Origin: a virus
Strand: one strand, 5' to 3'
IMG/VR virus record: IMGVR_UViG_3300034375_003622
Location: 1-28,711 of that record
Length of the DNA stretch: 28,711 bases
Of the stretch, positions 4,913 through 23,205 are shown piece by piece. Below the pieces are notes generated by a model. That model had not been told where the DNA came from and made no database searches. It saw only the letters and a program-made list of their open reading frames with translations. Position 1 is the first letter of the stretch; every line of letters begins with the position of its first letter. The position numbers were made by a program, and so were the translations under genes.

Positions 4913-4937
4913 CTGTTGACAACAAGTAAATCAACAG
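4913..4937 (+). repeat. 7-bp inverted repeat overlapping the -35 box of the capsid promoter
   Basis: CTGTTGA (4913-4919) and TCAACAG (4931-4937) are perfect reverse complements separated by 11 bases. The left arm includes part of the TTGACA box and the right arm abuts the -10 box, so the repeat could be an operator. It could also be an RNA hairpin at the end of the scaffold transcript, though no T run follows. Function inferred. Confidence 0.4.
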
Positions 4938-4943
4938 TATAAC
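4916..4943 (+). promoter_or_regulatory. Sigma70-like promoter for the capsid genes
   Basis: TTGACA at 4916-4921 (all six consensus bases) is followed after 16 bases by TATAAC at 4938-4943 (five of six). It lies at the start of the only sizeable non-coding gap in the window, 214 bases upstream of the major capsid start. A start site near 4950 would put the first leader hairpin almost at the 5' end of the transcript. Extra transcription here fits the large amount of capsid protein needed. Confidence 0.6.
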
Positions 4944-5075: not shown

Positions 5076-5156
5076 TATCTGCACCCTAGAAAAACAACAG
5101 CCTCTTTATAGGTGTTTAGCTTTATTCATAAGCCAAATATCATGGAGGATTTTCAA

Positions 5157-6715: not shown

Positions 6716-7447
6716 ATGGCAAATTACGTTACACTAGTTAATCAACTACTTACTAGACTAAATGAAGTTACTCTTGCTACAACAGGCAGTGGCTTTGATG
6801 ATGTACGTAACGTACAAGCATTAGCTAAACAAGCTATTAACAACTCCATTAGAAATATCCTACAGACAGGTCAGGAATGGCCTTTCTTAAAAACTACATA
6901 TACTCAGACATTGACTGCAGGTACAAGACAGTATGATTTTCCTGCAGATTTTGCTACGGTTGACTGGGACACTTTTTATATTAAAGAGTTAGGCTCTGCA
7001 AGTAATACACCTAGCTACTTGCCAACTATTTCTTTTGAAGAGTATACTCAAAGATATCGTGGAATAGATGATCAAAGTGATTCTGGATCTGGTGTATCTG
7101 CTCCACAAAGAGTTTATCAAACATACGAAAGTAAGTTTGGTGTAACTCCTGTTCCAAATGATGCTTATGAAATAGAGTACGTATATTGGACATTCCCTGC
7201 AGATCTTTCTGCCTATGATGATACAGCAGTTATTCCTGACAGATTTAATCATGTAATCATTGACGGTGCTATGATGTACATGATGAGATTTAGATCAAAT
7301 GATCAAAGTGCTGCTTTACACCAGCAAAGCCTTCAAGAAGGTATTCGTTCTATGAGACGTATTCTTATGGATGATCCACTAGATATTAGATCTACAGTTA
7401 TTCAAAGAAATAAATCGTTTAGCAATACTATGAGCACTATCGTCTAA
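6716..7447 (+). CDS. Head-tail adaptor (tail tubular A / gp4-like)
   Basis: A 243-aa protein. The N-terminus (MANYVTLVNQLLTRLNEV) and the next helix (VQALAKQAINNSIRNILQTGQEWPFLKTTYTQTL) match the helical bundle typical of podovirus adaptor proteins that dock under the portal (T7 gp11 / P22 gp4 class). A beta-rich middle follows (GTRQYDFPADFATVDWDTFYIKE; YEIEYVYWTFPADLS), then a C-terminal helix (FNHVIIDGAMMYMMRFRSNDQSAALHQQ) and a basic end. It extends the portal channel and forms the docking site for the nozzle or fibres. Gene order (coat, decoration, adaptor, nozzle, fibre) agrees. AAGG-type ribosome site at 6703-6706. The next start overlaps its stop (TAATG). Confidence 0.68.
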   Translation: MANYVTLVNQLLTRLNEVTLATTGSGFDDVRNVQALAKQAINNSIRNILQTGQEWPFLKTTYTQTLTAGTRQYDFPADFATVDWDTFYIKELGSASNTPSYLPTISFEEYTQRYRGIDDQSDSGSGVSAPQRVYQTYESKFGVTPVPNDAYEIEYVYWTFPADLSAYDDTAVIPDRFNHVIIDGAMMYMMRFRSNDQSAALHQQSLQEGIRSMRRILMDDPLDIRSTVIQRNKSFSNTMSTIV

Positions 7448-8997
7448 TGCCTGAAAATTTAGCTTCCTTTAAAGTATTTGCTGAAGGTGGATTGAACCTG
7501 AACAGGGACGTGTTGTCTCAAGGGGAAAGACAACCTGGTTCTGCTATTTCCTTACTTAATTACGAACCTGCTATAACTGGTGGATATAGACGTGTCAGTG
7601 GTTACACCAACGACTATGGCACAGTACCTGGTGATAGCTCTGGTAGTGTACTTGGTGTAGCAGTAGCTGCTGGTATTAACGATGGTATTCTTGCTGCACG
7701 TAAGCCTTCTTCAGGTAACAACTACTTACACTACTGGGATGCTACAGCAGAGTCTTGGACAGCAGTAACTACTTCTGGTTCACCTACAATGACAGGTGTA
7801 ACAAAAGTAAGATTTACTAGGTTTAACTGGGGGACAGCAAAGGTTATCCTGACAGATGGTGTAAACCCTGCAGCTACCTACGATGGTACAACTTACACCC
7901 AGATTACCCATGCTAATGCTCCTACAGATCCTAAGTTTGCTGCAGTATTCAAGAACCATATGTGGCTTGCAGGTGATCCTAGTGAACCTCATAACTTGTA
8001 TTTCAGTGCACCTACAGACGAAACCAAGTGGGCACCTGCAGATGGTGCTGGTGTAATCAACGTAGGTTTTCCTATTGTATCAATCAAACCGTTTCGTGAT
8101 TCTCTGTTTGTATTTGGTACGAACAACATTAAAAGGATTGTAGGAAACAACATCTCAGACTGGGCTTTACAGCACGTAACAGATGACCTTGGTTGCCTAG
8201 CATCAGATAGTGTTATTGAGATTGGTGGTGACCTAATCTTTTTATCACAGGATGGTATGAGACCTATCTCAGGTACAGATAAGATTGGTGACGTTAACTT
8301 GGAAACACTAACCAAGAACATCCAATCTTTTATTTCTGATGTTGTGTTTAATAACGATCTTGATGCTGTCTCTTCTGTAATCATCAGAGGTAAATCTCAG
8401 TTTAGATTATTCTATAACGTAGAAAATGGGAATGCACTTCTTGGTGGACTACGTATGGGACAACAGGGTGGCATTGGCTTTGAGTTTGGTCAGATGATTG
8501 GTATTGAGGCCACTTGTGCTGACAGTGGATACATCGACAAAGAAGAATATGTCATTCATGGGGACACTTCAGGTAAAGTCCACAGACAAGAATCAGGTAA
8601 TAGCTTTGGTGGAAATAACATCGTAAGCCTTTACCAAACACCATTCTTGCACATGCAAGATCCAGAGCAACGTAAGATTATTCATACTGTTGCTACTTAC
8701 CTTAGATCAGAAGGTGATAACGAGATCGTTATGTCGGTTGTATTTGACTACGATGATACCACCATTCTTAATCCAACTAACTTTACTTTAAGCACTGAAG
8801 GTGCTGCTGCATATTATAACGAAGCTGTCTTTAATGACTCTTCAACTATTTGGAGTGGTAACCCATCCCCTGTTCAAAGGGTGAATGTTTCAGGCTCAGG
8901 TAAATCAGTTTCTTTTAGATATGTTACAAATGACACGAATGCATCACACAGTATCCAAGGACTTGTTGTGACGTTTGGAGTGGGGGATAGATTATAA
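7447..8997 (+). CDS. Tail nozzle / DNA-stabilisation protein, beta-propeller-like
   Basis: A 516-aa protein starting one base inside the adaptor stop (TAATG). The N-terminus (FAEGGLNLNRDVLSQGERQPGSAISLLNYEP...GYRRVSGYT) is typical of podovirus tail hub or nozzle proteins that wrap the portal-adaptor assembly. Residues ~60-300 contain repeated strand-turn units of propeller type (DGILAARK...YLHYWDATAESW; TKVRFTRFNWGTAKVILTDGVNPAATYDGTTY; NHMWLAGDPSEPHNLYFSAPTDETKW; FRDSLFVFGTNNIKRI; DLIFLSQDGMRPIS). This resembles the P22 gp10 / T7 gp12 functional class that seals packaged DNA and carries fibres. Only two cysteines, in contrast to the next genes. Exact family uncertain. Confidence 0.62.
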   Translation: MPENLASFKVFAEGGLNLNRDVLSQGERQPGSAISLLNYEPAITGGYRRVSGYTNDYGTVPGDSSGSVLGVAVAAGINDGILAARKPSSGNNYLHYWDATAESWTAVTTSGSPTMTGVTKVRFTRFNWGTAKVILTDGVNPAATYDGTTYTQITHANAPTDPKFAAVFKNHMWLAGDPSEPHNLYFSAPTDETKWAPADGAGVINVGFPIVSIKPFRDSLFVFGTNNIKRIVGNNISDWALQHVTDDLGCLASDSVIEIGGDLIFLSQDGMRPISGTDKIGDVNLETLTKNIQSFISDVVFNNDLDAVSSVIIRGKSQFRLFYNVENGNALLGGLRMGQQGGIGFEFGQMIGIEATCADSGYIDKEEYVIHGDTSGKVHRQESGNSFGGNNIVSLYQTPFLHMQDPEQRKIIHTVATYLRSEGDNEIVMSVVFDYDDTTILNPTNFTLSTEGAAAYYNEAVFNDSSTIWSGNPSPVQRVNVSGSGKSVSFRYVTNDTNASHSIQGLVVTFGVGDRL

Positions 8998-11900
8998 ATG
9001 GCAGGTTATACAAGACAGAGTGTAGCTGATATTGTTTCTGGTCAGGTTATTAAAGCTGAACCAATCAACAACGAATTAAATCAGGTACTAGCTGCATTCA
9101 ATGCAAGCACAGGACACAAACATGATGGCACTTCAGCAGAAGGTGCTTACATTCCAACTATCTCTGATACTAACAACTATAACAAGGTTGTAATTGATAC
9201 AACTAACAACAGAATTAATTTCTTCACTAATGTTGGTAATGCAGCAGTAGAGCAGGTAAGGATACAAGATGGAGCTATTGTTCCTGTCACTGATGAAGAT
9301 ATTGATCTGGGTTCTCCGACTGCTGAGTTCAAAGATCTTTACATTGATGGTGTGGGTTATATCGACACTCTGGCGGTACATGAAAATGCTACTATTACGG
9401 GTAACCTTACCGTTAATGGGAATACTACTCTTGGTAGTGACGATAGTGATACTGTTACAGTAAATGCTGATGTTGCCTCAGACCTTATCCCTTCTGCAGA
9501 TGCAACATACGATTTGGGTGCTACAGGTAGTGAATGGAATGATGCTTACATTACTGGTACAGCAAACATTGATAGCCTTGTAGCTGACACAGCAGACATT
9601 AATGGTGGTACTATCGATGGTACTACTATTGGTGCTACTACCCCTGCTGCTGCTGACTTCACCACAATGGATGCATCTGGTAATGCTACTGTCGGTGGTA
9701 CACTTGGTGTAACAGGTAACACAACACTGTCTGGTACTCTTGGAGTTACAGGTGTTTCTACTTTCTCTGATACAGTCTGTGCACCTAACCTAAAAGCCAC
9801 AGGAACCTCAACTCTTAGCACAGTAGACATTAATGCAGGTAATATTGACAATACTGTTATTGGTGCCACTACTCCTGTTGCAGGTAGTTTTACTACAGTT
9901 AGTACGTCTGGACAGGGTACTTTTGCTACAGTAGATATCAATGGGGGTACTATTGACGGTGCTACTATTGGTGCTACTACAGCATGTCCTATAACAGGTA
10001 CGACTGTTGATGGTACAATTATTACAGCAAGCACTTGTTTTGCAGGTAATGTCTGTGGTTCTGTCACTGGTGACGTAACAGGAAACCTTACAGGTAATGC
10101 TGCAGGTTGCCATACAGGAAACTTTGATGGTACTGTAGGGGCTACTACAGCTTGCCCTATAACAGGTACTACTGTTACTGCTAACACTTGTTTTGTTGGA
10201 TGTGTAGTAGGTAATGTAACAGGAGATGTTACTGGAAATCTTACTGGAAATGCTGCAGGTTGTCACACAGGTAATTTTGACGGTACTGTTGGTGCTACGA
10301 CTGCATGTCCTGTAACTGCTACAACAATTGATGGTACTGTAATATGTGCAAGCACTTGCTTAGATGGACCTTTAGTAGGTAATGTAACAGGCGATGTCAC
10401 TGGTAATGTAAATTCAACAGGAATTTCTTGCTTTACAAGCCTTAAATTACAAGGTGATATGAATGCTAATAGTAATAAAATTACAAACTTAGCAGATCCT
10501 GTTTCTGATTCTGATGCAGCCACAAAATTGTATGTCGATAATGCAGTTGAAGGTTTGGATGTAAAAGGATCTGTTAAAGTTGCTACAACTGCAAACATTA
10601 CTTTAAGTGGTACTCAGACTATTGATGATATTGCAGTAGTTGCAGACGACAGGGTTCTTGTCAAAGACCAAAGTACAGCTTCAGAAAATGGCATATATGT
10701 AGTTGCTGCAGGTGCTTGGTCCAGATCAGATGATGCAGATACCTTTGACAAACATGCAGGAGCATTCTTCTTTGTTGAAGAGGGTACAACAAATGCTGAT
10801 AATGGTTTTGTTGGTACTGTGGATACAGGTGGTACTCTTGACACTACAGATATCACTTTCGTACAATTCTCAGGTGCAGGGCAGATTACAGCAGGTACTG
10901 GTCTCACTAAGTCTGGCAATACTATTAACGTTGTTACTGCAGACTCTGGTAGAATTGTAACAAATGCTGACAGTATTGATCTTGCTACAACAGGAGTAAG
11001 TGCAGGAACTTATAAGTCTGTTACTACAGATGTTTATGGACGTATTACAGGTGGGACAAACCCAACTACTCTTTCTGGGTATGGCATTACTGATGCTTAC
11101 ACAAACACCTGCACAGATACACTTTTAGATGCTAAGGTAGATCTTGCAGGAGACACAATGACTGGTGACCTAGCAATGGGTGCCAACTGTGTTACTTCTA
11201 CTGCTACACCTGCTACAGATGATACCTTAACTCGTAAAGGTTACGTTGATACACAGGATGCTTTAAAACTAAACTTATCAGGTGGTACTATGACTGGTGC
11301 CATTGATATGGGTTCTAGTAAGATAACCACAACGTATACTCCAACTGACAATGCCGATCTCACAACAAAAACATACGTTGACGGTATTTTAGGTTCTGCA
11401 ACTGCAGCAGCTACTTCTGCTACCAATGCTGCTACCTCAGAGACTAATGCAGCCACATCAGAAACAAATGCTGCTAACTCAGCTACTAATGCTGCTGCTT
11501 CAGCTACTTCGGCTGCCGATTCTTATGATGACTTTGATGACAGATACCTTGGTGACAAAGCTTCAGACCCATCAGTAGACAACGATGGTGATGGACTTAT
11601 TACTGGTGCATTGTATTGGAATACTACAGACAATGCTCTAAAAGTATACACAGGATCTGCTTGGGCTTCTGCAGCATTTACACTGGGTGATGCTCTTACT
11701 TGTATCCAAGAAGATACTTCTCCTGTCTTAGGTGGTAATCTTAATGCAGGTACAAACTGCATCTATGGTACAGGTGTAGTCTGTGTCTCTAACCTTTGTG
11801 GTACACTGACAGGTAACGTTACTGGTAATGTTACTGGTACTGTAAGTGATATCAGTAACCATGACACAGGTGACCTAACAGAAGGTTCAAACCAGTACTT

Positions 11901-13905
11901 CACAACAGGCAGAGTAGACAGCCACCTAACAGGTGGTACAGGTGTTACTTACACAACTGGTACAATAGCTATTGGTCAGTCTGTTGGTACAGCAGACAAT
12001 GTATGCTTTGGTTCTGTCTGTGTTACAGCTAACCCAACTTTAGCTTGCCAACTTGCAACTAAAGAGTACGTTGACACGATTGCTGCTGCTGGTATCCACT
12101 ACCATGACCCAGTACGTGTTGAATCACCAGACAGTGCAGGAAACCTAAATGCTACCTATGACAATGGTACAGCAGGTGTAGGTGCTACACTTACTAACAA
12201 TGGTACACAAGCTGCCCTAGTTATTGATGGTGTAACCCTAAACACAAATGATCGTGTTCTTATCTACAGCCAAACCAATGGTTACGAAAATGGTGTTTAC
12301 ACAGTTACCAACACTGGTTCAGCTTCAACTAACTGGGTTCTTACTCGTGCTACAGATGCTGACAGTTATGGTGCTTCAGATCAGAATGCACTAGGTGAAG
12401 GTGATGCATTCTTCGTAAAAGAAGGTGACACTGGTGCTGGTGAGTTGTACGTGATGAATACATCTGGTACAATTACATTCGGTACTACAAACATTAGCTT
12501 TACTGTCGTAGCTGAGACTGCTGTTTACGATGCAGGTAATGGTCTGACACTAGATGGTACAACCTTTGCTGTAGGAGCAGGAACAGGTGTTACAGTCAAT
12601 GCTAACACAGTTGCTATCGGACAGGCAGTAGGTACAGGCGATACAGTAACCTTTGCCAGAGTATGTGCTCCTGTCACAGGTGCTGTAACTGGTAATGCTA
12701 CTACTGCAACTTGCTGGCAAACTGGTAGAACAATCAGCCTTACAGGGGCAGTAACTGGATCTGTTACAGGTGTTAATGGTTCAGGTAATGTAAGTATTGC
12801 AACGACTGCTACTTCTGATCCTACACTTTGTATCTGTGGGGATGCTACAGGTTCTGCTACATTCACAAACCTTGGTAATGCTAACCTTAGCCTTACTATT
12901 GCAGACGATAGCCACAACCATACAGTAGCTAACGTTGATGGACTAGCAACATGTTTGTCAGGTAAAGCTGGAACAAATGGTTCTACATCTAATAACTTTA
13001 GTGCAGCCTGTCTTTGTGCAGCTAACTGTTTCCAAGCTCCATACATTGCAGTAAACTGTGGTTGTGCAGTAAACTGCTGGAAATCACCAGTTGTCTGTGG
13101 TTCAACTGCTCTTAGGGGTGCCTGTGCAGCTTTAACTACCTGTGTTTGCACACCATACCTAGTCTCATCAGGAATTGTTTGTGCAGGTACTTGTTTAAGA
13201 GGACAAACTTGTCTGAACACACCTATTGCTTGTGGATCAAGCTGTGTTATATCTCCTACTATCTGTGGTACTTCTTGGCTTGCAGTAGGTGGCAGATGTA
13301 TCTGTGAAACTGGTGGTGAGTATGGAACAATTTCTGTTACTACTGGTAATAATAACTGGTGTGGTTACTCCATTGCTAACAACTACGTGTTCATGGCATG
13401 TGGTGGATCGATGGGTCTGTACAATGATATTACAAATGAATGGGCACTTCTACATTGTTGCAACGGTTCAACATGTTTATACCACAATGGAACAGCTCAA
13501 TTTGCAACTACTGGTTACGGTTCTTATACATCAGGTTGTAGCTGTGCATCAAACTGCTTTATCTCACCAGTAGTATGTGGTGTTACAACCAGAGGTACAA
13601 CAGCTTGCTTCACTGACTTCAACTCTACTTCTGACTGCAGGTGCAAAGAGAACATTGCTACAGTAGATGATGCATACAATAAGATCGGTCAGATCAGAGG
13701 TGTGAACTATAACTGGAAAGATTCTGGCAAGTACACAATGGGTGTTGTTGCTCAAGAAGTAGAAGAAGCATTCCCAGAACTTGTTACAACAGATGACGAT
13801 GGTTACAAATCAGTCAACTATAATGGCTTGGTAGGTGCACTTATTGAAACTGTGAAGTGTCTACAAGGTAAAGTAGAGGAACTAGAGAATGGCTCTAAAG
13901 GTTAG
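8998..13905 (+). CDS. Giant tail fibre with C-terminal S74 intramolecular chaperone
   Basis: A 1635-aa trimeric-fibre-type protein starting immediately after the upstream stop. Residues 1-60 are a probable attachment domain (MAGYTRQSVADIVSG...NASTGHKHDG). Residues ~120-480 are repetitive Thr/Gly/Val strands (NLTVNGNTTL, GNVTGDVTGNLTG). ATK.YVD-type motifs follow near 505, 745, 790 and 1020. Two paralogous domains (DDRVLVKDQ...ENGIYVV and NDRVLIYSQ...ENGVYTV) lie at ~520-625 and ~1031-1171, with an Ala-rich heptad stretch between (~805-839). The C-terminus is an S74 domain: NSTSD.R.KENI at 1542-1552, predicted self-cleavage between S1545 and D1546, then a helical trimerisation tail that would be released. 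Cys appears only after residue ~260 and totals about 58 by hand count, unusual for a fibre. Role: receptor binding. Confidence 0.85.
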   Translation: MAGYTRQSVADIVSGQVIKAEPINNELNQVLAAFNASTGHKHDGTSAEGAYIPTISDTNNYNKVVIDTTNNRINFFTNVGNAAVEQVRIQDGAIVPVTDEDIDLGSPTAEFKDLYIDGVGYIDTLAVHENATITGNLTVNGNTTLGSDDSDTVTVNADVASDLIPSADATYDLGATGSEWNDAYITGTANIDSLVADTADINGGTIDGTTIGATTPAAADFTTMDASGNATVGGTLGVTGNTTLSGTLGVTGVSTFSDTVCAPNLKATGTSTLSTVDINAGNIDNTVIGATTPVAGSFTTVSTSGQGTFATVDINGGTIDGATIGATTACPITGTTVDGTIITASTCFAGNVCGSVTGDVTGNLTGNAAGCHTGNFDGTVGATTACPITGTTVTANTCFVGCVVGNVTGDVTGNLTGNAAGCHTGNFDGTVGATTACPVTATTIDGTVICASTCLDGPLVGNVTGDVTGNVNSTGISCFTSLKLQGDMNANSNKITNLADPVSDSDAATKLYVDNAVEGLDVKGSVKVATTANITLSGTQTIDDIAVVADDRVLVKDQSTASENGIYVVAAGAWSRSDDADTFDKHAGAFFFVEEGTTNADNGFVGTVDTGGTLDTTDITFVQFSGAGQITAGTGLTKSGNTINVVTADSGRIVTNADSIDLATTGVSAGTYKSVTTDVYGRITGGTNPTTLSGYGITDAYTNTCTDTLLDAKVDLAGDTMTGDLAMGANCVTSTATPATDDTLTRKGYVDTQDALKLNLSGGTMTGAIDMGSSKITTTYTPTDNADLTTKTYVDGILGSATAAATSATNAATSETNAATSETNAANSATNAAASATSAADSYDDFDDRYLGDKASDPSVDNDGDGLITGALYWNTTDNALKVYTGSAWASAAFTLGDALTCIQEDTSPVLGGNLNAGTNCIYGTGVVCVSNLCGTLTGNVTGNVTGTVSDISNHDTGDLTEGSNQYFTTGRVDSHLTGGTGVTYTTGTIAIGQSVGTADNVCFGSVCVTANPTLACQLATKEYVDTIAAAGIHYHDPVRVESPDSAGNLNATYDNGTAGVGATLTNNGTQAALVIDGVTLNTNDRVLIYSQTNGYENGVYTVTNTGSASTNWVLTRATDADSYGASDQNALGEGDAFFVKEGDTGAGELYVMNTSGTITFGTTNISFTVVAETAVYDAGNGLTLDGTTFAVGAGTGVTVNANTVAIGQAVGTGDTVTFARVCAPVTGAVTGNATTATCWQTGRTISLTGAVTGSVTGVNGSGNVSIATTATSDPTLCICGDATGSATFTNLGNANLSLTIADDSHNHTVANVDGLATCLSGKAGTNGSTSNNFSAACLCAANCFQAPYIAVNCGCAVNCWKSPVVCGSTALRGACAALTTCVCTPYLVSSGIVCAGTCLRGQTCLNTPIACGSSCVISPTICGTSWLAVGGRCICETGGEYGTISVTTGNNNWCGYSIANNYVFMACGGSMGLYNDITNEWALLHCCNGSTCLYHNGTAQFATTGYGSYTSGCSCASNCFISPVVCGVTTRGTTACFTDFNSTSDCRCKENIATVDDAYNKIGQIRGVNYNWKDSGKYTMGVVAQEVEEAFPELVTTDDDGYKSVNYNGLVGALIETVKCLQGKVEELENGSKG
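10063..10311 (+). repeat. Duplicated 32-residue fibre module with silent divergence
   Basis: Two copies, 10063-10158 and 10216-10311, encode the same 32 residues, from VTGDVTGNLTG through AAGCHTGNFDG to ATTACP. Codon-by-codon comparison shows 20 third-position differences and no amino-acid change. Shorter related units (GTIDG.TIGATTP) occur at ~9605 and ~9950. The repeats presumably form successive strands of the fibre shaft. Confidence 0.8.
11410..11514 (+). repeat. Five Ala-rich heptads in the fibre shaft
   Basis: Five consecutive 21-base units encode ATSATNA, ATSETNA, ATSETNA, ANSATNA and AASATSA. They are followed by ADSYDDFDDRYLG, a junction common in phage fibres, and by a DNDGDG loop that could bind calcium. 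This is probably a short three-stranded coiled coil between the two halves of the fibre. Confidence 0.75.
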
Positions 13906-14134: not shown

Positions 14135-17100
14135 ATGGCATATAAGATTAATGGCACTACGGTGGTCGATAACAGCAGGAACGTCTGTGCCTGTTGTGTT
14201 ACCTCGTGTTGTATTACAGCTAGTACACGTATGGATGTTCCTTCAGGTAACACAGCCAGTAGGCCAGCATCTCCTGCTACTGGGTCTATCTACTTTGATA
14301 CAGACTTGGGTTCTCTTATATCTTACGATGGGACTGCCTGGGCTGCTGTAGGTGGAGGATCTGGTTTAGACTTAGAAGAAATTGTAACTAGTGATGCAGA
14401 TGCTTGGGCATTTATTGCTCCTTCAGCACAATGTGCATGTAGAACATATAACCCTCAGTGTCATGGTTATGCTTGTTATAAACATGGAGATTTAAAAGAT
14501 TATTCTTTGTACTCTGTAGCTACAGATACTCCTTGTTTTCATACACTTCTAGCATTTCAAAACTACGGTAATGGTAGTTGTGCTGTACAATTATATTGTA
14601 GAGACTCACAACAATACATTTGCTGTGTAGAATGTGGGGAATACACAAAATGTGTAACTGCCCTTCCCTGTAGAACTAATAATTGTTGTATTGGTATGAT
14701 TGTTGGTTTGGAGCCAAACTGCAATGCATCATTAAATACTAGATTTAATGTTAAAGGACATTTTCCAATTCAGGTTGGACCTGATGGATCTGTAAGAATT
14801 TTTGCTGTAGACAGATGTGTCCAAACTGGAACAAACCATTGCCTAGTAGGAGCTAACTGCTGGTATCATATGGGGGAATACTTTGTTAATACAAAGGGTG
14901 GAGTTTCCTTAAATGAAAACACTAGTCCTTGGGCTTGTGCTCTCAACATTTGTAAATGTACTAGAGTACCTTTTGGCTATATAGCCACTCCAAGAATTGC
15001 AGGTAAAACTCGTGATGGATGGTTAGCTTACTTTAGAGGAAGAATACATTTTAGAGATGATATTGGTTCATCTCCAAATATGTGTTGCCCTGTTAATATT
15101 CCTATTTTAAGTAGCACGTATGGAACTGGACTTGAAGAGGCTTGTGATTACTTCTTTATTACAAAACCTGGCCCTGGTGTTCCTTACTTCAATGCTCCTA
15201 TGTTTCCTGTTTTAACCACAGGCTTGTGTTATTGTTATAACACATCTACACAGCTATGTGATACTGTTTACAATTGTTGTATGGCAAATCAGATACCTTT
15301 TAAAAGTACTATAAATGGTTTAGTTGGTTGTAATGAATTTAGCTTTTATAACTCCAGAACAGACATTCCTATGGGTGGTAGTGCTTATAATATAAACAAT
15401 TATGATTTATGTATTTGTTGTTACTCAGATGGCGTTTGTAATGCTGCATTCTCTGTAGGATGTTGTGCTTTTGCAATACAAAGACTTGTTGGGCATATTG
15501 GAGTATGTTGTATATGTTTTAGTAATTTTGCACAAGATTCACAAGGACTAATGTTTCCTTCAAGAGATGGATGTTACTTACACAGAATTTTTATATGTCA
15601 GCAAACATGTGCCTCAACTTCTGTCTGCTCCTGTAAAAGGTCTACAAGCAGCTCAGGTGCTAATAACTGCTGGGGGCGTTTTGACAGACTTTACCAAACA
15701 AAAATTGACAGGCTTAACCAATGTGTTGTACAACACAAAGGATTCTGTGGTGTAGATAAGCTTGCTTGGGAATGTAATGTTTTAGGATGCAGTGCTTTAT
15801 CTGAACCTAGACAAACTTGGGTATCTGAGTATCCACAACTTTTGTGTTCAATTGGTGCTGCTATAGATCCAAATAGGGATCACACAGATCTTACAACATA
15901 CATGAGATTTAATCATTCTGGTAGCAATTATACATGTCTCAGAACCATGCCACTTGAAGAACAACACCATGTTATTTGGAGTAAGGTTTGTTCTAACAGA
16001 GGGTTCCTCTTTTATGATAATTGTTGTGGAGAGATGGGGTACTCAGTCTTTGATTGTAACAAAGATCAACTAGACTTTACTTACAATTTTTGTAGATCTT
16101 TAGGAGTTCATCCAAACAATCCAGTAGCTAGACATTTAGTAGATTTATTTGGTACACCTCCAGTTTGTATGTCTACCTCTTGTGTTGGCTGTTTTGCTTG
16201 TTTCTTTGGTGGGTGTTCCTCTGGGTGGACTGCCTACAGAGAATGTTTGTGTGCTGTTACTGGAAACTGTAGTGTACCTTTAACTGCTAAATGTTTAGGG
16301 TATAAGCTTTACTTTGGTGGCTGTTCATGTATGTACAAATTTGTCCCACCAGGAACTGGTTCTCAGTTTTCAATGGTTCATAACAGGTATAACGACCATT
16401 TAGTTTTCTTTAGAGCTATAGGGTGTAGTATCTCTAGTTCTGAAAATTACCCTAGTGAGATCTCTTGGATAGGAGCTATTTGTTGGGATCTACATAACCA
16501 ATGTGTCTCTAAAGTAAATACTTTCTGGCCTCCTCCCCTTGATATATTACAGTATCAGTGTAAAGCATACTACGACATGCACCAGTGTGCTATAGCTTGC
16601 TCTACTTGTTATTTTACGTTATGTTCTCCTACCCATAAACCCCAGGGTTGTGGTTATGGTGGTTGTTTCTGTGAGTGTCACAGACCTTGCAACCAAGGTG
16701 TTAAAGTTATTCCCTATGGAAACTATAAGACCTGGATTGACAGTGGTTGTACTGACTATGGTGGGCTTGTTATAAGTTCTCACTTAGGGGGAGCAGGGTC
16801 ATGTCATGGTAATCTAAACAATCTACAAATACGTAGAGATACTACTTGTTGTAATTACTTCTGTTATTATTACTGCACTGCTGTAGCATCTACTGATCCT
16901 TGTATAAGAAGTTGTAACTCAAACTTAATTATGAATATCGTTCCTGAAGCAGCTATGGTAGCTAGGGTTCCTTTTACTAAACCTTTAGAATGTATTGGCT
17001 GGAGATCCGAACCAGACTTTGCAAAGATGTTTAATGCTGTTATATCACCTCAGTGCTGTGCTTGCTACTTTACAAATTTAATGACTTACGGTGGCACTGA

Positions 17101-17587
17101 ACACCAGTGTATTACAAGACTTGCTAACTGTATGAATTTTAAAGTAGGTGAGTGTCAAACTTGTCAGGCATTAACATGTTGGACCTGTGGTCCATACGGT
17201 AGTGTTGACTGTATGAGATGGCACTATACTCTAAAAATAGTAACTAGTAATTGTTGTTTATTTTCTAACTGTTGTTTTGTTACAGGTCAAAGTAATGGAA
17301 CTTGGTGTCCTGTTCCATTAAGTTGTTACTATGCTTATTTAACTACGTGTGCTCGTACTCATAACTGTGCACAAGTATATAAGTGTGTCCAACCATGTCA
17401 CTTAAATAAAAGTGAAACATCTAAATTGTATATACACCCTTACATAGAAAGTGATGCTCCAGTAGTGGCACACAACTACTCTAGAAATAATAGAGCAGAT
17501 GGACGATATATACCTCTTGCTACAGGTGAACACCCAAGAGAATGGTTCCACAGATTCTGGAATGAGTGTATAATCTGTTGTTGCTAA
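14135..17587 (+). CDS. Extremely cysteine-rich 1150-aa putative receptor-binding/fibre protein
   Basis: Begins after GGACGGAG at 14121-14128 with a fibre-type N-terminal unit (residues 1-69, shared with the preceding 71-aa protein). The remaining ~1080 residues match no family I know. By hand count there are about 118 Cys (close to 10%), spread over the whole length as single residues, CC pairs, CxC and CxxC (NVCACCVTSCC near the start; ending in ECIICCC). Tyr, Trp, Phe, Asn and Ser are frequent too, suggesting a folded, surface-exposed, aromatic-rich binding protein. No signal peptide, membrane segment or recognisable zinc-finger spacing. It follows the fibre gene, so it probably works with it at the tail tip. 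Disulphide cross-linking or metal binding is possible, but the sequence alone does not decide. The coding call is supported by length, the ribosome site and the homologous N-terminus. Confidence 0.75.
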   Translation: MAYKINGTTVVDNSRNVCACCVTSCCITASTRMDVPSGNTASRPASPATGSIYFDTDLGSLISYDGTAWAAVGGGSGLDLEEIVTSDADAWAFIAPSAQCACRTYNPQCHGYACYKHGDLKDYSLYSVATDTPCFHTLLAFQNYGNGSCAVQLYCRDSQQYICCVECGEYTKCVTALPCRTNNCCIGMIVGLEPNCNASLNTRFNVKGHFPIQVGPDGSVRIFAVDRCVQTGTNHCLVGANCWYHMGEYFVNTKGGVSLNENTSPWACALNICKCTRVPFGYIATPRIAGKTRDGWLAYFRGRIHFRDDIGSSPNMCCPVNIPILSSTYGTGLEEACDYFFITKPGPGVPYFNAPMFPVLTTGLCYCYNTSTQLCDTVYNCCMANQIPFKSTINGLVGCNEFSFYNSRTDIPMGGSAYNINNYDLCICCYSDGVCNAAFSVGCCAFAIQRLVGHIGVCCICFSNFAQDSQGLMFPSRDGCYLHRIFICQQTCASTSVCSCKRSTSSSGANNCWGRFDRLYQTKIDRLNQCVVQHKGFCGVDKLAWECNVLGCSALSEPRQTWVSEYPQLLCSIGAAIDPNRDHTDLTTYMRFNHSGSNYTCLRTMPLEEQHHVIWSKVCSNRGFLFYDNCCGEMGYSVFDCNKDQLDFTYNFCRSLGVHPNNPVARHLVDLFGTPPVCMSTSCVGCFACFFGGCSSGWTAYRECLCAVTGNCSVPLTAKCLGYKLYFGGCSCMYKFVPPGTGSQFSMVHNRYNDHLVFFRAIGCSISSSENYPSEISWIGAICWDLHNQCVSKVNTFWPPPLDILQYQCKAYYDMHQCAIACSTCYFTLCSPTHKPQGCGYGGCFCECHRPCNQGVKVIPYGNYKTWIDSGCTDYGGLVISSHLGGAGSCHGNLNNLQIRRDTTCCNYFCYYYCTAVASTDPCIRSCNSNLIMNIVPEAAMVARVPFTKPLECIGWRSEPDFAKMFNAVISPQCCACYFTNLMTYGGTEHQCITRLANCMNFKVGECQTCQALTCWTCGPYGSVDCMRWHYTLKIVTSNCCLFSNCCFVTGQSNGTWCPVPLSCYYAYLTTCARTHNCAQVYKCVQPCHLNKSETSKLYIHPYIESDAPVVAHNYSRNNRADGRYIPLATGEHPREWFHRFWNECIICCC

Positions 17588-17664: not shown

Positions 17665-18591
17665 ATGAAAACTGTTTTTGTAATTGATGGTGGAGCAGGT
17701 AGGGCTATAGCAGCTATTCCTGCTCTCATCAAATACTCAAAGAAAAACCAAAACTTTAAAGTTATGGTTATGGGTTGGGACTCTCTGTACTGGGGTATCC
17801 CTGAGCTACACGATAAAGTATTTAATCCAGATCAAAAAGGTGCCTTTGAGCAATTCTTTATGGATGCTGACAGGGTTATCTCTCCAGAACCATACAGAGT
17901 TCCAGGCTACTACAAACAAGAAAAGTCTCTTGCTGAAGCTTTTGATTACTTGATCAACGAGACTGATGATCACTCTGACCTTGGTGCTCCTGTTCTTAAA
18001 ACAAATAGGCAAGAAGAACTACAGGCTGCTAACTTTATGCAATCTGTAAGACAGCAACAACAGAAACAGAAGACTATTGTTATACAACCTTTCGGTAGAT
18101 CTATTGAAAAACCACAAGAAGGTGTTTTATTAGATCAGTCTTCTCGTTCTATTAATCCAGATACGTACCTTAAACTAGTAAAGAAACTAGCAACAAAGTA
18201 TAACCTAGTTTTGTTTGCTGAGAAAAACTTCTGGATGCCTGAAGATACGTACACCATGAAGCCTGAAGCAGACCTTCGTATGTGGTCAGCATTTATTGAT
18301 GCAGCAGATTACTTCATTGGTTGTGACTCTGCAGGTCAACATATGGCAAGAGCATTTAATAAACCAGGTACAGTAATTATAGGATCTACTTTTTCTATAA
18401 ATACTAGTTATCCAAAACACTTTAATATTGTAGAAAGGGATGTTCCTAAAGTATACTCACCTATCCGTATATCAGGTCTTGAGTCACACTTAGCTGACAG
18501 GTTCAACGAGTCTACAGTAGAGTTTAGTGATGAAGAAATTAATACGATGTATGCTGACATTGTGAAAGACATCGAGAAGAAGGTGAAGTAA
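17665..18591 (+). CDS. GT9-like (ADP-heptose) glycosyltransferase
   Basis: A 308-aa protein with a GT-B, family-9 layout. The N-terminus KTVFVIDGGAGRAIAAIPAL (2-21) resembles the Gly-rich start of LPS heptosyltransferases. Residues ~136-145 hold a strand (KTIVIQPFGRS) opening the second domain. Residues 215-233 (DYFIGCDSAGQHMARAFNK) match the D.fig.DsG..H.A.a donor-site signature, followed by TVIIGST. It is slightly shorter than WaaC/WaaF-type enzymes (about 320-350 aa). Expected role: transfer of heptose from ADP-heptose to an acceptor, in the cytoplasm or at the inner face of the membrane. The flanking ADP-heptose synthesis genes support heptose as the sugar. The acceptor (lipid A-core, another glycan or a phage protein) is unknown. 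Weak ribosome site (AAGAAG). Stop and next start are one base apart. Confidence 0.7.
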   Translation: MKTVFVIDGGAGRAIAAIPALIKYSKKNQNFKVMVMGWDSLYWGIPELHDKVFNPDQKGAFEQFFMDADRVISPEPYRVPGYYKQEKSLAEAFDYLINETDDHSDLGAPVLKTNRQEELQAANFMQSVRQQQQKQKTIVIQPFGRSIEKPQEGVLLDQSSRSINPDTYLKLVKKLATKYNLVLFAEKNFWMPEDTYTMKPEADLRMWSAFIDAADYFIGCDSAGQHMARAFNKPGTVIIGSTFSINTSYPKHFNIVERDVPKVYSPIRISGLESHLADRFNESTVEFSDEEINTMYADIVKDIEKKVK

Positions 18592-18592
18592 A

Positions 18593-20308
18593 ATGAATAT
18601 CCTAGCAATTAATCCAGGTCATAATGGTTCTGCTGCCTTACTAATAGATGGTGAACTAGAGTTTTACGTAGAAGAAGAAAGACTGTCTCGTAGTAAATAT
18701 GATGGTAACCCTTTTATGGGAATGCTTGAATCACTTAAGTATGGGGTAGATACTTTAATTATTGGTGGTACACATCCAGACTTACCACAGCTTCCTTGGA
18801 CTGGCGAAGATCCCTATACTGCTATTATTCGTAAACATAATCCAAATCTTAAAGTAATAAAAGCTGGACATATTCATCATATAGGCCATGCTGCTGCAGC
18901 TTTCTTTAACTCAGGGTTTGAAGATGCTGCTGCTGTTATTGTAGATGGTTCTGGAACTAGACAAGATATAAAACTTAATGAGGAAGGTCAAACAAATCCA
19001 GGGTTTGAAACAGAGAGTATATTTAACTGTAGTTACTCTGATGGCATAGTTCCTGTGTTTCAATCTTTTGGTGGTAACTTTGATACCATGCCTGTCTCCT
19101 CTGATAACATTGAAATGGATAATGCTATCACACTTGTTAAAGCCTATGAAGCTGTATCAGACTATTTAGGTTTTGGTTTTATTGAAGCAGGTAAGACAAT
19201 GGGTCTTGCACCATACGGTAAGTATGATGAGATGATACCTAGCCTGTTCTTTAATGGTAGAGGAAACAAGAATGTATTTATCCCTAATTACCCTGCTGGT
19301 GCTCATATTGATCATGGTCGTCACCCCTATCTAAGTCTTAAAGAAGATCCAAAGGCTTGGCATAATGATCCTAGTAAGGTAACAGAAGCAGCTAAAAACT
19401 TAGCTTGGGCAGTACAAGATGAAACACAAACTCTTGTTGGTGACTTGATTGAGAAAGCTGTAAAGAAAACTGATAAGAAGAATATTGTTATTGCTGGTGG
19501 GTATGGTCTTAACTGTGTAGCAAACTACTACTACAAGAAACGTTTTCCTGACCTAAACATCTACGTAGATCCTATCTCTCATGATGGTGGTACAGCAATC
19601 GGTCTAGCTCAATTAGTCCACTACACAGAAACTAAAGATGAAACTATTCGTCCACTAAGTACTTTGTATCTTGGCCCTAAACGTGAAGAGTCTTACGACT
19701 TTGGTGACATTGAAACGACAGAAGTAAAACCTGCTGATGTAGCAAAGCTTATCTCTGAGAAGAATATCGTAGCCTTATACCAAGGACGTTCTGAGGCTGG
19801 CCCTCGTGCACTGGGTAACCGTTCTATCCTTTATGATCCCACAGATCCCAAGGGTAAGGACACTGTGAACAAGGTCAAAGGACGTGAGTGGTTCAGACCA
19901 TTTGCAGGTTCAATGATGCAGGAGTACTTTGAAGAGTGGTTCGAGACATATGGGATGGAAGAGTCACCATTCATGATGTATGCAATGGACTTCAAGTTAG
20001 AGAAGCATGGTGAGTGTCCTGCTATCACACACGTAGATGGTACTTGTCGTATCCAGACTGTGACTAAAGAGCAGAATGAAACATACCATACTCTGATAGA
20101 TGAGTTCCGTAAGATTACTGGTGTACCTATCCTGTTCAACACTAGCTTCAACCTAGCAGGTGAGCCATTAGTAGAAACATTAGATGATGCAATGAGAACT
20201 ATTAAGAACTCAGACATCAACTACTTGTACATACCAGAACAAGGTCTGTTGGTAAAGTATCCCCACAATGACTCAGTAGTTGAAGAAGAAAAGGAAGAGG
20301 CTGCTTAA
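18593..20308 (+). CDS. O-carbamoyltransferase of the NodU/TobZ family
   Basis: A 571-aa protein of normal length for the family. The N-terminal Kae1-like domain starts MNILAINPGHNGSAALLIDG with the acidic EEERLSR segment. HIHHIGHA (93-100) supplies the metal-binding His residues, DGSGT (118-122) a phosphate loop, and EAGKTMGLAPYGK and IVIAGGYGLNCVAN are typical later motifs. The C-terminal YrdC-like domain has GRSEAGPRALGNRSIL (~398-412) and FNTSFN (515-520), both family hallmarks. The enzyme makes carbamoyl-adenylate from carbamoyl phosphate and ATP and transfers the carbamoyl group to a hydroxyl, usually of a sugar. Coupled to the glycosyltransferase (one-base gap), so the heptose product is the likely acceptor. 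Its TAA overlaps the convergent stop of the GmhB-like gene at TTAA. Confidence 0.9.
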   Translation: MNILAINPGHNGSAALLIDGELEFYVEEERLSRSKYDGNPFMGMLESLKYGVDTLIIGGTHPDLPQLPWTGEDPYTAIIRKHNPNLKVIKAGHIHHIGHAAAAFFNSGFEDAAAVIVDGSGTRQDIKLNEEGQTNPGFETESIFNCSYSDGIVPVFQSFGGNFDTMPVSSDNIEMDNAITLVKAYEAVSDYLGFGFIEAGKTMGLAPYGKYDEMIPSLFFNGRGNKNVFIPNYPAGAHIDHGRHPYLSLKEDPKAWHNDPSKVTEAAKNLAWAVQDETQTLVGDLIEKAVKKTDKKNIVIAGGYGLNCVANYYYKKRFPDLNIYVDPISHDGGTAIGLAQLVHYTETKDETIRPLSTLYLGPKREESYDFGDIETTEVKPADVAKLISEKNIVALYQGRSEAGPRALGNRSILYDPTDPKGKDTVNKVKGREWFRPFAGSMMQEYFEEWFETYGMEESPFMMYAMDFKLEKHGECPAITHVDGTCRIQTVTKEQNETYHTLIDEFRKITGVPILFNTSFNLAGEPLVETLDDAMRTIKNSDINYLYIPEQGLLVKYPHNDSVVEEEKEEAA

Positions 20309-20952
20309 GGTAGCCTATCCACAAATTGGAGGAGGTTATCGAAAACCTTAGTCTTCTTTCTTAACTTCTCTTTTGAGAACTTCTTTAGCTCTCCTTCAGT
20401 GTCCACCCCATGACCAGTTCTTACTAAGATTGGGGTGGCACCAATTCTCTCAGCAGCTTTAAGGTCAGACATCTTATCTCCTACGTAGAAACCTTTATCT
20501 TTGAACCTAGTCTTTCCACCAAAGATTTCTTTCTCTGCTCTGTGAAACATACCTAAGTTAGGTTTGGCATAGATATCTTCTTTCAATGAAGACTCTGAAT
20601 AGAAAAGAGCATCAATAGAGTAGATACCTGCATTACCAAAGATCTCAAACATACGTTGGTGTACAGCTTCTACCTGCTCATGTGTTTGTAGTCCTTTAAT
20701 AATACCACCCTGGTTAGTTAATATTACCACTTTGTAGCCTTTCATACGAAGCTTGTGGATAGCTGCTAGGGACTCAGGGTACACCTCAAAGTCTTCAGGG
20801 TCTGTGATGTAGTGTCCTTTATCTACGTTGATAACACCATCACGATCTAGACCTACAATAGACTTAGGGAAGACTGTAGGCCAATCTGGTGGTAACTCTT
20901 GTTGAGGTTGTTGACTTGGTTCTTGTGTGATAATATGTTTAAATCTAGACAT
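20305..20952 (-). CDS. gmhB: GmhB-like HAD phosphatase (heptose bisphosphate phosphatase)
   Basis: The only minus-strand gene in the window, 215 aa. After a ~30-residue Gln/Pro-rich leader come the HAD motifs: LDRDGV (35-40, nucleophile D36 and acid D38), LTNQGGI (78-84), K130 in AKPNLGMF, and VGDKMSDL (157-164). LDRDGVIN, TNQGG and KPN.GM together are typical of the GmhB/HisB-N group. GmhB removes the 1-phosphate from D-glycero-beta-D-manno-heptose 1,7-bisphosphate. The Cys/His zinc loop of classical GmhB is missing: residues 117-130 contain no Cys or His. ATG at 20952 is preferred because the AGGAG ribosome site (20962-20958) overlaps the alternative GTG at 20958. Its stop overlaps the carbamoyltransferase stop; its promoter lies inside the divergent hldC start. 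HisB-like phosphatase is an alternative, but context favours GmhB. Confidence 0.75.
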   Translation of the reverse strand: MSRFKHIITQEPSQQPQQELPPDWPTVFPKSIVGLDRDGVINVDKGHYITDPEDFEVYPESLAAIHKLRMKGYKVVILTNQGGIIKGLQTHEQVEAVHQRMFEIFGNAGIYSIDALFYSESSLKEDIYAKPNLGMFHRAEKEIFGGKTRFKDKGFYVGDKMSDLKAAERIGATPILVRTGHGVDTEGELKKFSKEKLRKKTKVFDNLLQFVDRLP

Positions 20953-20972
20953 AAGCACTCCTTTTTAACAGG

Positions 20973-21001
20973 ATAATACATATGAAAAAAGTATTTGTCA
21001 A
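20973..21001 (-). promoter_or_regulatory. Near-consensus sigma70 promoter for the GmhB-like gene
   Basis: Read on the minus strand: TTGACA at 21001-20996 (six of six), a 17-base spacer, and TATTAT at 20978-20973 (five of six). The predicted start near 20966 leaves a leader of about 14 bases that includes the AAGGAG ribosome site. The -35 box and much of the spacer lie within the first codons of the divergent adenylyltransferase gene. Confidence 0.72.
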
Positions 21002-21392
21002 TGGAGCCTTTGACGTAATACATTCTGGACACCTCGATCTTATTGAATTTGCAGGGATGTTAGGTGGTCATTTACTTGTAGCTATTGACACAGACGATAA
21101 AATAAGGTATAACAAGGGGGCAGATAGACCTTTTAACAATCTGAAAAATCGGAAGCATCTTATATCAATGTTAAAGCCTGTAAATGCTGTTGTGTCATTT
21201 AATTCAGATGAAGACTTGGCAGCTATTATCAAAAGGTATGAACCTGATGTTATGGTGAAAGGTTCCGATTGGAGGGGGAAGAAGATTGTTGGTGAGGAAT
21301 ACTGCAAGGAAGTAGTATTCTTTGAGAGGACCAATAATGAATCAACAACAAAAACCCTCCAAGATTTTGTTGATAGGAGACGGATGTTATGA
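20982..21392 (+). CDS. hldC: Heptose-1-phosphate adenylyltransferase (HldE C-domain type)
   Basis: A 136-aa stand-alone nucleotidyltransferase matching the second domain of bifunctional HldE/RfaE. The N-terminus KKVFVNGAFDVIHSGHLDLI carries the HxGH motif (H14-H17). Further on are AIDTDDKIR, KGADRPFNNLKNR, DVMVKGSDW (89-97), and near the end NESTTKTLQ (119-127), equivalent to the STT segment of the family. It transfers AMP from ATP to D-glycero-beta-D-manno-heptose 1-phosphate, giving ADP-D,D-heptose. AGGA at 20970-20973 is its ribosome site, which overlaps the -10 box of the opposing promoter. Its 3' end overlaps the kinase gene by 56 bases in another frame. Glycerol-3-phosphate cytidylyltransferase is a related alternative, but the adjacent RfaE-type kinase favours heptose. 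Confidence 0.85.
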   Translation: MKKVFVNGAFDVIHSGHLDLIEFAGMLGGHLLVAIDTDDKIRYNKGADRPFNNLKNRKHLISMLKPVNAVVSFNSDEDLAAIIKRYEPDVMVKGSDWRGKKIVGEEYCKEVVFFERTNNESTTKTLQDFVDRRRML

Positions 21393-22092
21393 CGAGTACT
21401 GTTACGGTGTAGTAAACAGGCTAAACCCAGAGGCACCAGTACCAGTATTAGATTGGGATACCACTGTTCGTAAATTAGGGATGGCTGGTAATGTCTTACA
21501 AAACTTTCAGGCACTTGGTGTAGATTGTCATTATGACATTCTGTATAAAGAAACAAAGAAACGTTACATAGACTCAAAAACAGGTCAACAGATCGTAAGA
21601 GTCGATGTACCTCTTATAGAAGAAGAACATGATGAGCATCGGTTACACAACTTTAGTGATTACGATGCTGTCGTTATCTCTGATTATAATAAAGGTTATG
21701 TCTCTACTTTTGCTATCCAAAGTATCTTAGAAAGTTACAATGGCCCAGTATTTATTGATACAAAGAAGCAAGACTTAAAACTATTTAATAAAGCTTTTGT
21801 AAAAATAAATCAGTACGAATATGAAAATAGAACATCTGATGCAGATAACATGATTGTTACGTTTGGGTCAGAGAAAGTCGTCTACAAGGATAAGCTGTAC
21901 TTACCACCTAAAGTAGATGCACACGATGTTTGTGGAGCAGGAGATACCTTTTTAGCAGCTCTGGTATACAACTACTTACAAACAGAAAGTGTAGAAAAAG
22001 CTATTAAGTTTGCTATGAAAGCTGCTGCAGTAACTGTTCAACATGTCGGTGTGTATGCACCTCGTTTAGAGGAGATACGTCATGCGGCTTAA
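21337..22092 (+). CDS. hldA: Heptose-7-phosphate kinase (HldE N-domain type, PfkB family)
   Basis: A 251-aa PfkB-family kinase. Residues 11-37 (LLIGDGCYDEYCYG, then NRLNPEAPVPV) are the characteristic RfaE/HldE N-domain opening. GMAGNV (48-53) corresponds to the GGAANV substrate loop, SDYNKG (115-120) is a family motif, and CGAGDTF (199-205) is the PfkB signature with catalytic base D203. It phosphorylates D-glycero-D-manno-heptose 7-phosphate at O-1. It is shorter than the ~318-residue HldE kinase domain, so some loops are trimmed. ATG 21337 is chosen because AGAGGA at 21325-21330 is six bases upstream; TTG at 21322 lies before that site. In E. coli HldE the kinase precedes the adenylyltransferase in one chain; here the genes are separate and in reverse order. 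Confidence 0.85.
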   Translation: MNQQQKPSKILLIGDGCYDEYCYGVVNRLNPEAPVPVLDWDTTVRKLGMAGNVLQNFQALGVDCHYDILYKETKKRYIDSKTGQQIVRVDVPLIEEEHDEHRLHNFSDYDAVVISDYNKGYVSTFAIQSILESYNGPVFIDTKKQDLKLFNKAFVKINQYEYENRTSDADNMIVTFGSEKVVYKDKLYLPPKVDAHDVCGAGDTFLAALVYNYLQTESVEKAIKFAMKAAAVTVQHVGVYAPRLEEIRHAA

Positions 22093-22438
22093 TGGACATG
22101 TTAAAAAGGGTTGGGGGTCAGAACTAATATGGGCAACCAACGACAAATACTGTGGTAAGTTTTTACATTTTAACGAAGGTGCTAAGTTTTCTATGCACTT
22201 TCACAGAGAGAAAGATGAAACTTGGTATGTCCTTAAGGGAAAGTTTAAAGTTATCTACATTGATACAAAAGACGCAAGCACTCATGAAAAGACTCTTACA
22301 GCTGGTGATACATGGCGTAATGAACCTTTGGTCCCGCATCAAATCATTTGTGAAACGGAAGGGACAGTAATCGAGGTGTCTACTCCTGACTCGGTAGAAG
22401 ATAACTATCGTGTAGGTCGAGGAGACAGCCAAAAATGA
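22082..22438 (+). CDS. Small single-domain cupin, possible sugar-phosphate isomerase
   Basis: A 118-aa protein. WGSELIWATNDKYCGKFLHF (11-30) resembles the opening of mannose-6-phosphate isomerase-type cupins. The first cupin motif is complete: G33, H39, H41, E46 and G53 with exact G-x5-HxH-x4-E-x6-G spacing. The second is AGDTW...LVPHQI with H86. A metal site of H39, H41, E46 and H86 is expected. It overlaps the kinase by 11 bases and the epimerase by 4 (ATGA), so it is translated as part of the heptose operon. The substrate is not evident. A phosphomannose-isomerase-like aldose-ketose reaction would be chemically close to the missing GmhA step, but this is only a hypothesis; a regulatory or binding role is possible too. 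Confidence 0.7.
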   Translation: MRLNGHVKKGWGSELIWATNDKYCGKFLHFNEGAKFSMHFHREKDETWYVLKGKFKVIYIDTKDASTHEKTLTAGDTWRNEPLVPHQIICETEGTVIEVSTPDSVEDNYRVGRGDSQK

Positions 22439-23205
22439 AGATACTAGTTACTGGAAGTAATGGGTTCATTGGGCAGAACATGGTCAATGCACTTGAGCCA
22501 CACCACGAAGTAGTTAAAAACGAATGGGGGATGTCTTTTCCTAAAGTAAAAGGATTAGATTGGGTAATACACCTAGGGGCTATTAGCTCTACAACTGAGA
22601 CAAACATTTCTCGTATATACAGACAGAATGTAGAGTTCTCTATTAAGTTGTATGAAGAGTGTATCAAACATAACGTTAAGTTTCAGTTTGCTTCCAGTGC
22701 TTCAGTCTATGGATTAAAGTCAGACTTCAAGGAGACATCTCCTGTTGATCCTCAGAACCATTATGCTCGTAGTAAGGCATTGTTTGAAAAGTATGTAGAG
22801 TTTAGAAATGCTGATATCACTACTCAGATATTTAGATACTTCAACGTACATGGCCCCCACGAGGAGCACAAGGGAAACCAAGCAAGCCCCTTCACTAAGT
22901 TTATGTTCCAGGCTAAAACGACTGGTAAGATAAAGCTGTTCAAAGGATCAGAAAAATTTAAAAGAGACTTTATCCACGTAGGTAAAGTAGTTATGGATCA
23001 GCAAAGATTCTTTGATGTAGATGAGTCAGGTATATGGAATTTTGGCACAGGCAATGCTCGTAGCTTCTACGATGTAGCCTTAGAAGTCTCAGGTAAGACT
23101 GGTGCAACTATAGAATTTATTGATTTCCCAGAGAATTTAAAAGGTAATTACCAAGAGTTTACTAAAGCAGACACAACAAAGCTTAGGCAGACTTTAGCAT
23201 TATAA
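22435..23205 (+). CDS. hldD: ADP-L-glycero-D-manno-heptose 6-epimerase (HldD/RfaD)
   Basis: A 256-aa extended short-chain dehydrogenase/reductase protein. MKILVTGSNGFIGQNM gives the NAD(P)-binding GxxGxxG (G7, G10, G13). GAISSTTE (48-55), FASSASVYG (85-93), Y110-x3-K114, RYFNVHGPHEEHKGNQAS (134-151), KRDFIHV (176-182) and the C-terminal FPENLKGNYQ plus EFTKAD (231-246) follow the HldD pattern almost motif for motif; the HKG and FP..LKG.YQ.FT.AD elements distinguish it from other sugar epimerases. It inverts C-6 of ADP-D-glycero-beta-D-manno-heptose to the L-glycero form used in LPS core. It is shorter than E. coli HldD (310 aa), with a compressed early region. Last gene of the sugar operon; the next gene is 11 bases downstream. 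Confidence 0.9.
   Translation: MKILVTGSNGFIGQNMVNALEPHHEVVKNEWGMSFPKVKGLDWVIHLGAISSTTETNISRIYRQNVEFSIKLYEECIKHNVKFQFASSASVYGLKSDFKETSPVDPQNHYARSKALFEKYVEFRNADITTQIFRYFNVHGPHEEHKGNQASPFTKFMFQAKTTGKIKLFKGSEKFKRDFIHVGKVVMDQQRFFDVDESGIWNFGTGNARSFYDVALEVSGKTGATIEFIDFPENLKGNYQEFTKADTTKLRQTLAL

Follow-up and report, generated by a model that had tools for sequence, protein, structure and literature searches.

Predicted divergent promoters inside the hldC-like gene beside a reversed gmhB-like gene in a marine HMO-2011-type podovirus

How can a gene that lies against the direction of its operon be expressed? The question is raised by a gmhB-like phosphatase gene, which on ORF inspection is the sole convincing minus-strand gene in the window (the whole stretch of 28,711 nucleotides analyzed here), as the first-pass annotation had noted. 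In the structural-gene arm of the phage, the gene points leftward, with a carbamoyltransferase gene on one side and hldC on the other; rightward transcription cannot express it, and it would thus need its own promoter. We consider it probable that gmhB has a host-polymerase promoter, TTGACA-N17-TATTAT, and that this promoter stands with an opposing TATAAC element, the first 44 codons of hldC serving as a divergent promoter region. The features concerned are as follows.

4916 to 4943, plus strand: phage-type element TTGACA-N16-TATAAC upstream of the major capsid gene (5112 to 6230)
18593 to 20308, plus strand: NodU-like carbamoyltransferase gene, tail-to-tail with gmhB (4-bp overlap)
20305 to 20952, minus strand: lone reversed gmhB-like HAD phosphatase gene, 215 amino acids (PNK3P/HAD Pfam and PRK08942 matches)
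20953 to 20966, minus strand: predicted 14-nt leader, with AAGGAG at 20963 to 20958
20973 to 20978, minus strand: -10 box TATTAT of the predicted gmhB promoter
20982 to 21392, plus strand: promoter-bearing hldC-like nucleotidyltransferase gene, 136 amino acids (CTP_transf_like and rfaE_dom_II matches)
20996 to 21001, minus strand: -35 box TTGACA of the predicted gmhB promoter
21085 to 21113, plus strand: phage-type element TTGACA-N17-TATAAC in hldC codons 35 to 44
21340 to 23205, plus strand: hldA-like kinase, cupin, and epimerase genes, which follow the plus-strand element

The capsid protein of the window is 83% identical to that of CRP-9 and 72% identical to that of HMO-2011 (72 to 83% against the isolates), and the structural genes are in the same order as in HMO-2011 and the Roseobacter phages CRP-1, CRP-9, CRP-13, and CRP-345. 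On the basis of this homologous capsid and the syntenic structural genes, the phage is assigned to the marine HMO-2011-type podoviruses. The window is a fragment, and its host would be a member of the Rhodobacteraceae, judging from the closest isolates only. Rfam and tRNA scans of the window gave no matches. The predicted fibre-like protein encoded at 14135 to 17587 on the plus strand (1150 amino acids) contains 118 cysteines (10.3%) and has no family match in NCBIfam; the 1635-residue protein encoded upstream of it contains 3.5% cysteine, and the capsid protein contains none.

Unlike the HMO-2011-type isolates, the window carries the carbamoyltransferase gene and a cassette of heptose genes, and its GmhB has no match in those isolates; a search of cultured phages with GmhB gave six weak matches, the HMO-2011-type isolates not among them, and a distant search of cultured phages with the junction DNA gave no match. 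The cassette (17665 to 23205, in the structural arm) encodes heptosyltransferase-like, carbamoyltransferase, GmhB-like, HldC-like, HldA-like, cupin, and HldD-like proteins, and a GmhA isomerase was not recognised among its genes. The best NCBIfam match of the phosphatase is the heptose-bisphosphate phosphatase PRK08942, with 124.7 bits. Because this score lies under the curated cut-off of 178, the protein is best named GmhB-like rather than GmhB proper; it exceeds the threshold of the HAD-IIIA domain model. HldC scores 101.1 bits against rfaE_dom_II (cut-off, 181.5), and the HldA- and HldD-like proteins also match their families with scores under the curated cut-offs. Taken together, the GmhB-, HldC-, HldA-, and HldD-like proteins, the heptosyltransferase-like protein, and the carbamoyltransferase suggest that a heptose-type surface sugar is made or modified.

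The divergent gmhB/hldC layout is identical in all contigs of the phage group that span the locus. In several outgroup phages, gmhB is absent between the carbamoyltransferase gene and hldC, and in others it shares the direction of its neighbours or converges tail-to-tail on the carbamoyltransferase gene. The distant phage L102, whose GmhB is 46% identical, also has a reversed gmhB between the carbamoyltransferase gene and hldC, with a larger gap.

On the minus strand, the TTGACA box, the 17-bp spacer, TATTAT, and the 14-nt leader with AAGGAG before the ATG at 20952 to 20950 were all confirmed by reading the sequence. As had been described, the -35 box lies in hldC codons 5 to 7, and the -10 box, which sits in the 29-bp gap between gmhB and hldC, touches the hldC Shine-Dalgarno sequence AGGA (20970 to 20973). 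The -35 box takes in the last base of codon 5, the whole of codon 6, and positions 1 and 2 of codon 7. The site agrees with the E. coli consensus at 11 of 12 positions, and its hexamers and spacing are those of sigma70 promoters (16 to 18 bp, with the start 6 to 8 nt on); the position of the -10 box predicts a transcript start at the A at 20966. The ORF list gives a GTG start at 20958. The ATG at 20952 is the likely start codon, because the GTG lies within the Shine-Dalgarno sequence; the residues MSRF are conserved at the ATG in the relatives. The site is the top-scoring promoter-like site on both strands of the 28.7-kb window, the score being based on the E. coli consensus rather than on one measured in the host. 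The exact TTGACA-TATAAT pattern was not found in the window.

The first-pass annotation called this promoter almost ideal. It is indeed the best in the window, but the ideal -35 box is supplied in part by a protein motif of HldC. When the HldC protein was held fixed and codons followed the usage of the window, TTGACA by itself appeared in 7.7% of the simulated sequences, because the conserved residues VFVNG already force TTNACN on the opposite strand. With the -35 box thus half owed to the protein, the stronger case comes from conservation across relatives rather than from chance figures.

IMG/VR scans with GmhB and HldC yielded 58 and 73 loci, respectively, and 39 sequences were compared at gmhB/hldC, of which 21 (including the window) form class A and 18 form class B. 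In all 21 class A sequences, Phe5 and Val6 of HldC are encoded by TTT and GTC, which gives TTGACA, and a -10 box of the form TA...T (TATTAT, TAGTAT, TACTAT, TAAAAT, TATACT, or TAAATT) is found after 16 to 18 bp and is kept even though the gap DNA differs between lineages. In class B, Val6 is GTT, which gives TTAACA or TTAACG; the gap is shorter, there is no well-placed Shine-Dalgarno sequence, and mostly there is no -10 box. The GTC codon and the -10 box are thus jointly present or jointly absent in 39 of 39 sequences, except for a weak TAATAT in L072, L077, and L078. The TTAACA beside the ATG was also considered as a leaderless promoter in class B and was rejected; those three loci alone have a fair -10 box.

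GTC accounts for 10.9% of the valine codons in the window. Among 16 class A sequences tabulated by codon, 10 of the 60 columns with an invariant residue use a single codon, including Phe5 and Val6 (P = 0.004 once the plus-strand element is removed), and the other valine columns all vary. The predicted promoter ranks first in the class A loci (approximately 7,000 to 12,700 positions per locus) but third in L087 and L089 to L091. These patterns show that the putative gmhB promoter is under selection in the relatives rather than a product of chance, with part of the conservation explained by shared descent, because one change on the hldC tree separates the two classes. The site could be a coincidence without a role, in which VFVNG gives TTNACN free and the AT-rich gap supplies the -10 box; the 7.7% frequency of TTGACA and the presence of GTC at Val6 in 7 of 24 outgroup HldC sequences are in keeping with this. 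We consider such a coincidence very unlikely, as a site of at least 11/12 arose in that place in only about 0.26% of the simulations, the GTC codon and the -10 box are linked, and several unlike gaps keep the -10 box.

Most class A members have a short leader with AAGGAG before the gmhB ATG. In L079, L086, and L087, the -10 box ends 6 nt before the ATG and there is no Shine-Dalgarno sequence, which predicts a leaderless mRNA that begins with the AUG. Such mRNAs are known from Alphaproteobacteria, including 119 TSS-gene pairs in Zymomonas (PMC7566282). Two start designs around one fixed -35 box are hard to explain if the site is not used as a promoter.

The proposed promoter is thus conserved in 21 of the 39 sequences, whereas the other 18 are without it and may use another site in hldC. 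In class B, codons 59 to 68 of hldC carry TTGACA-N17-TATAT[G/A] on the minus strand, approximately 190 nt upstream of gmhB, with Val67 GTC and Ile60 ATA fixed in 14 of 14 sequences (e.g., L068 to L083, L085, and L131). This site may be the class B gmhB promoter, as a weaker candidate, or may simply be inherited; it would meet the plus-strand hldC element head-on. By analogy, gmhB of the window might be expressed mainly from a minus-strand promoter deeper in hldC or by leftward read-through. We give this little credence, because class A sequences have no TTGACA at codons 59 to 68, the next-best upstream site in the window scores 8.8 against 14.2, and there is no minus-strand gene upstream of gmhB as a source of read-through.

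The class changes once on the hldC tree and seven times (six of them forced) on the gmhB tree, and these counts show that the predicted promoter class travels with hldC and not with gmhB. In 100-bp blocks, gmhB of the window has 83 to 100% DNA identity to class B L003, L005, L007, and L034 up to the start codon, past which identity is 35% in the gap and 56 to 61% in hldA. The boundary at 20952/20953 has the appearance of a sharp recombination boundary, with an unrelated gap and divergent hldC and hldA beyond it. This drop in identity at the start codon implies that gmhB alleles are swapped at about that point and take the promoter of the hldC side.

Another interpretation is that the site is mainly regulatory: a bidirectional or clashing promoter, in which leftward starts block hldC and the rightward genes or set their timing. 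The plus-strand hexamer GATAAT (20972 to 20977) lies exactly over the minus-strand -10 box, and the opposite starts would be at 20966 and 20984, 18 bp apart. According to PMC10268837 (citing Warman 2021), an 18-bp start spacing is usual for bacterial bidirectional promoters, whose opposite -10 boxes overlap. Unlike in the promoters described there, this geometry is not kept in all class A gaps (those of L079, L086, and L089 to L092 have no partner hexamer). A bidirectional promoter serving hldC was rejected because its plus-strand start would lie within the AUG of that gene; a plus-strand -35 box is also missing. The start codon and Shine-Dalgarno sequence of gmhB are kept, as expected for expression. 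A mainly regulatory role is therefore quite unlikely in our judgment.

The promoter for gmhB expression that we favour has a counterpart deeper in the same gene, one that the first-pass annotation had not noted. The plus-strand element TTGACA-N17-TATAAC is present in 30 of 30 HldC sequences of the group and in 0 of 24 outgroups. Asp36 is GAC in 30/30 sequences, whereas Asp38, two codons on, is GAC in 16 and GAT in 14; likewise, Asn44 is AAC in 30/30, and the control Asn52 is split 16/14. The Tyr43-Asn44 pair is absent from the outgroup HldC proteins. Among 57 columns, 5 of the 7 that use a single codon cluster in the stretch of the element (P = 2.9e-5). The two sites are back-to-back, 84 bp apart, and hldC seems to carry a pair of predicted divergent promoters. 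The plus-strand element might instead be frozen for the HldC protein or mRNA: Asp36, Thr37, Tyr43, Asn44, and Lys45 are themselves invariant residues, and Thr37 ACA, Lys45 AAG, and Arg49 AGA are frozen too, yet lie outside the hexamers. This is unlikely, since protein constraint leaves unexplained the fixed codons of Asp36 and Asn44 beside the mixed codons of Asp38 and Asn52, and these phages show strong enrichment of the same 12-base motif, which marks their capsid genes.

In the window, full-length relatives, and the isolates HMO-2011, CRP-1, CRP-9, CRP-13, and CRP-345, TTGACA-N16-TATAAC precedes the major capsid gene by approximately 170 to 200 nt. These isolates have TTGAC-N16/17-TATAAC elements in common with the window, and the motif before the capsid gene is apparently a hallmark of the HMO-2011-type phages. 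In the plus arm, other copies of the TATAAC motif are found where the DNA polymerase gene ends or a few genes later. TTGACN-N16/17-TATAAC was found in 29 copies against 0.93 expected from hexamer frequencies, copies that are not independent origins because many occupy homologous places in related phages; the -10 variants TATAAT and TATTAT numbered 3 and 5 in the same count. A whole-record pattern search gave 17 TATAAC motifs against 1 for the reversed control. In IMG/VR, among the matches listed, TTGACA-N16-TATAACTA lies no more than 500 nt before a capsid gene of this type in 87 of 120, and the TATAAT control TATAATTA lies upstream of such a gene in 0 of 120 of its listed matches. Searching the literature turned up no account of promoters in HMO-2011-type phages.

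T7-type RNA polymerase (PF00940) was found in none of 13 HMO-2011-type records (the T7 positive control gave 1e-110; the window itself is a fragment), and host polymerase therefore probably reads both kinds of promoter. The first-pass annotation proposed that host polymerase makes the phosphatase independently of late transcription. A sigma70-type promoter for gmhB, with the gene's own ribosome site, is supported. As no T7-type polymerase was found, however, the two kinds of transcription probably differ not in polymerase but in promoter class, one host enzyme reading promoters with T at -7 (gmhB) and with C at -7 (TATAAC, phage operons). The TTGAC -35 box and 16- to 17-bp spacer of the phage motifs are as in alphaproteobacterial sigma70 promoters (Myers 2021, PMC8407463). 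According to that article, such promoters often lack T at -7 and are thought to be aided by CarD (Henry 2020, cited there). The phage TATAAC, with a non-T at -7, resembles many of them, and its C is in keeping with Alphaproteobacteria; in the gmhB promoter, position -7 is T. Unlike in the promoters of PMC8407463, two promoter types occur in one phage, both embedded in a coding gene.

In the scheme that we favour, host RNA polymerase with the housekeeping sigma factor would bind TTGACA-N17-TATTAT and start at about 20966, giving a gmhB mRNA with a short Shine-Dalgarno leader. The TTGACA-N17-TATAAC element deeper in hldC would drive hldA, cupin, and epimerase in the opposite direction, and hldC itself would be made from read-through RNA. 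With both elements in hldC, its first 44 codons would double as a divergent promoter region. The scheme draws on the sequences, their conservation, codon freezing, motif enrichment, and no detectable T7-type polymerase, from which we infer the activity of both elements, their reading by the host enzyme, and a timing difference between T and C at -7. The gmhB RNA would be antisense to rightward transcripts, as had been pointed out, and the geometry of a minus-strand promoter facing opposing genes is real. Interference between leftward and rightward transcription may occur and, like any timing difference, is plausible.

A broader proposal, which we regard as tentative and somewhat doubtful, is that hldC has a dual use. 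Its codons, and even Tyr43-Asn44, would be fixed for the phage promoter, codons 5 to 7 or 59 to 68 would hold the gmhB promoter, and allele swaps would set gmhB expression, with hldC modules bringing a strong promoter with T at -7 and a Shine-Dalgarno sequence, a leaderless form, or a weaker distant promoter.

Morons are individual phage genes that carry a promoter and a terminator of their own. The gmhB-like gene recalls a moron in that it stands alone against the operon, has its own predicted promoter, and is missing at that place in several other phages. Unlike for morons, no terminator was found next to its end, and its predicted promoter overlaps the coding sequence of its neighbour.

The predicted promoter arrangement would account for the expression of a gene that was inserted against an operon, and promoter bases visibly constrain the codons, and perhaps the residues, of the overlapping gene. 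TTGAC-N16/17-TATAAC is a testable promoter for the capsid genes of these phages, and T and C at -7 can be compared in nature within one phage, whose likely hosts use CarD for C.
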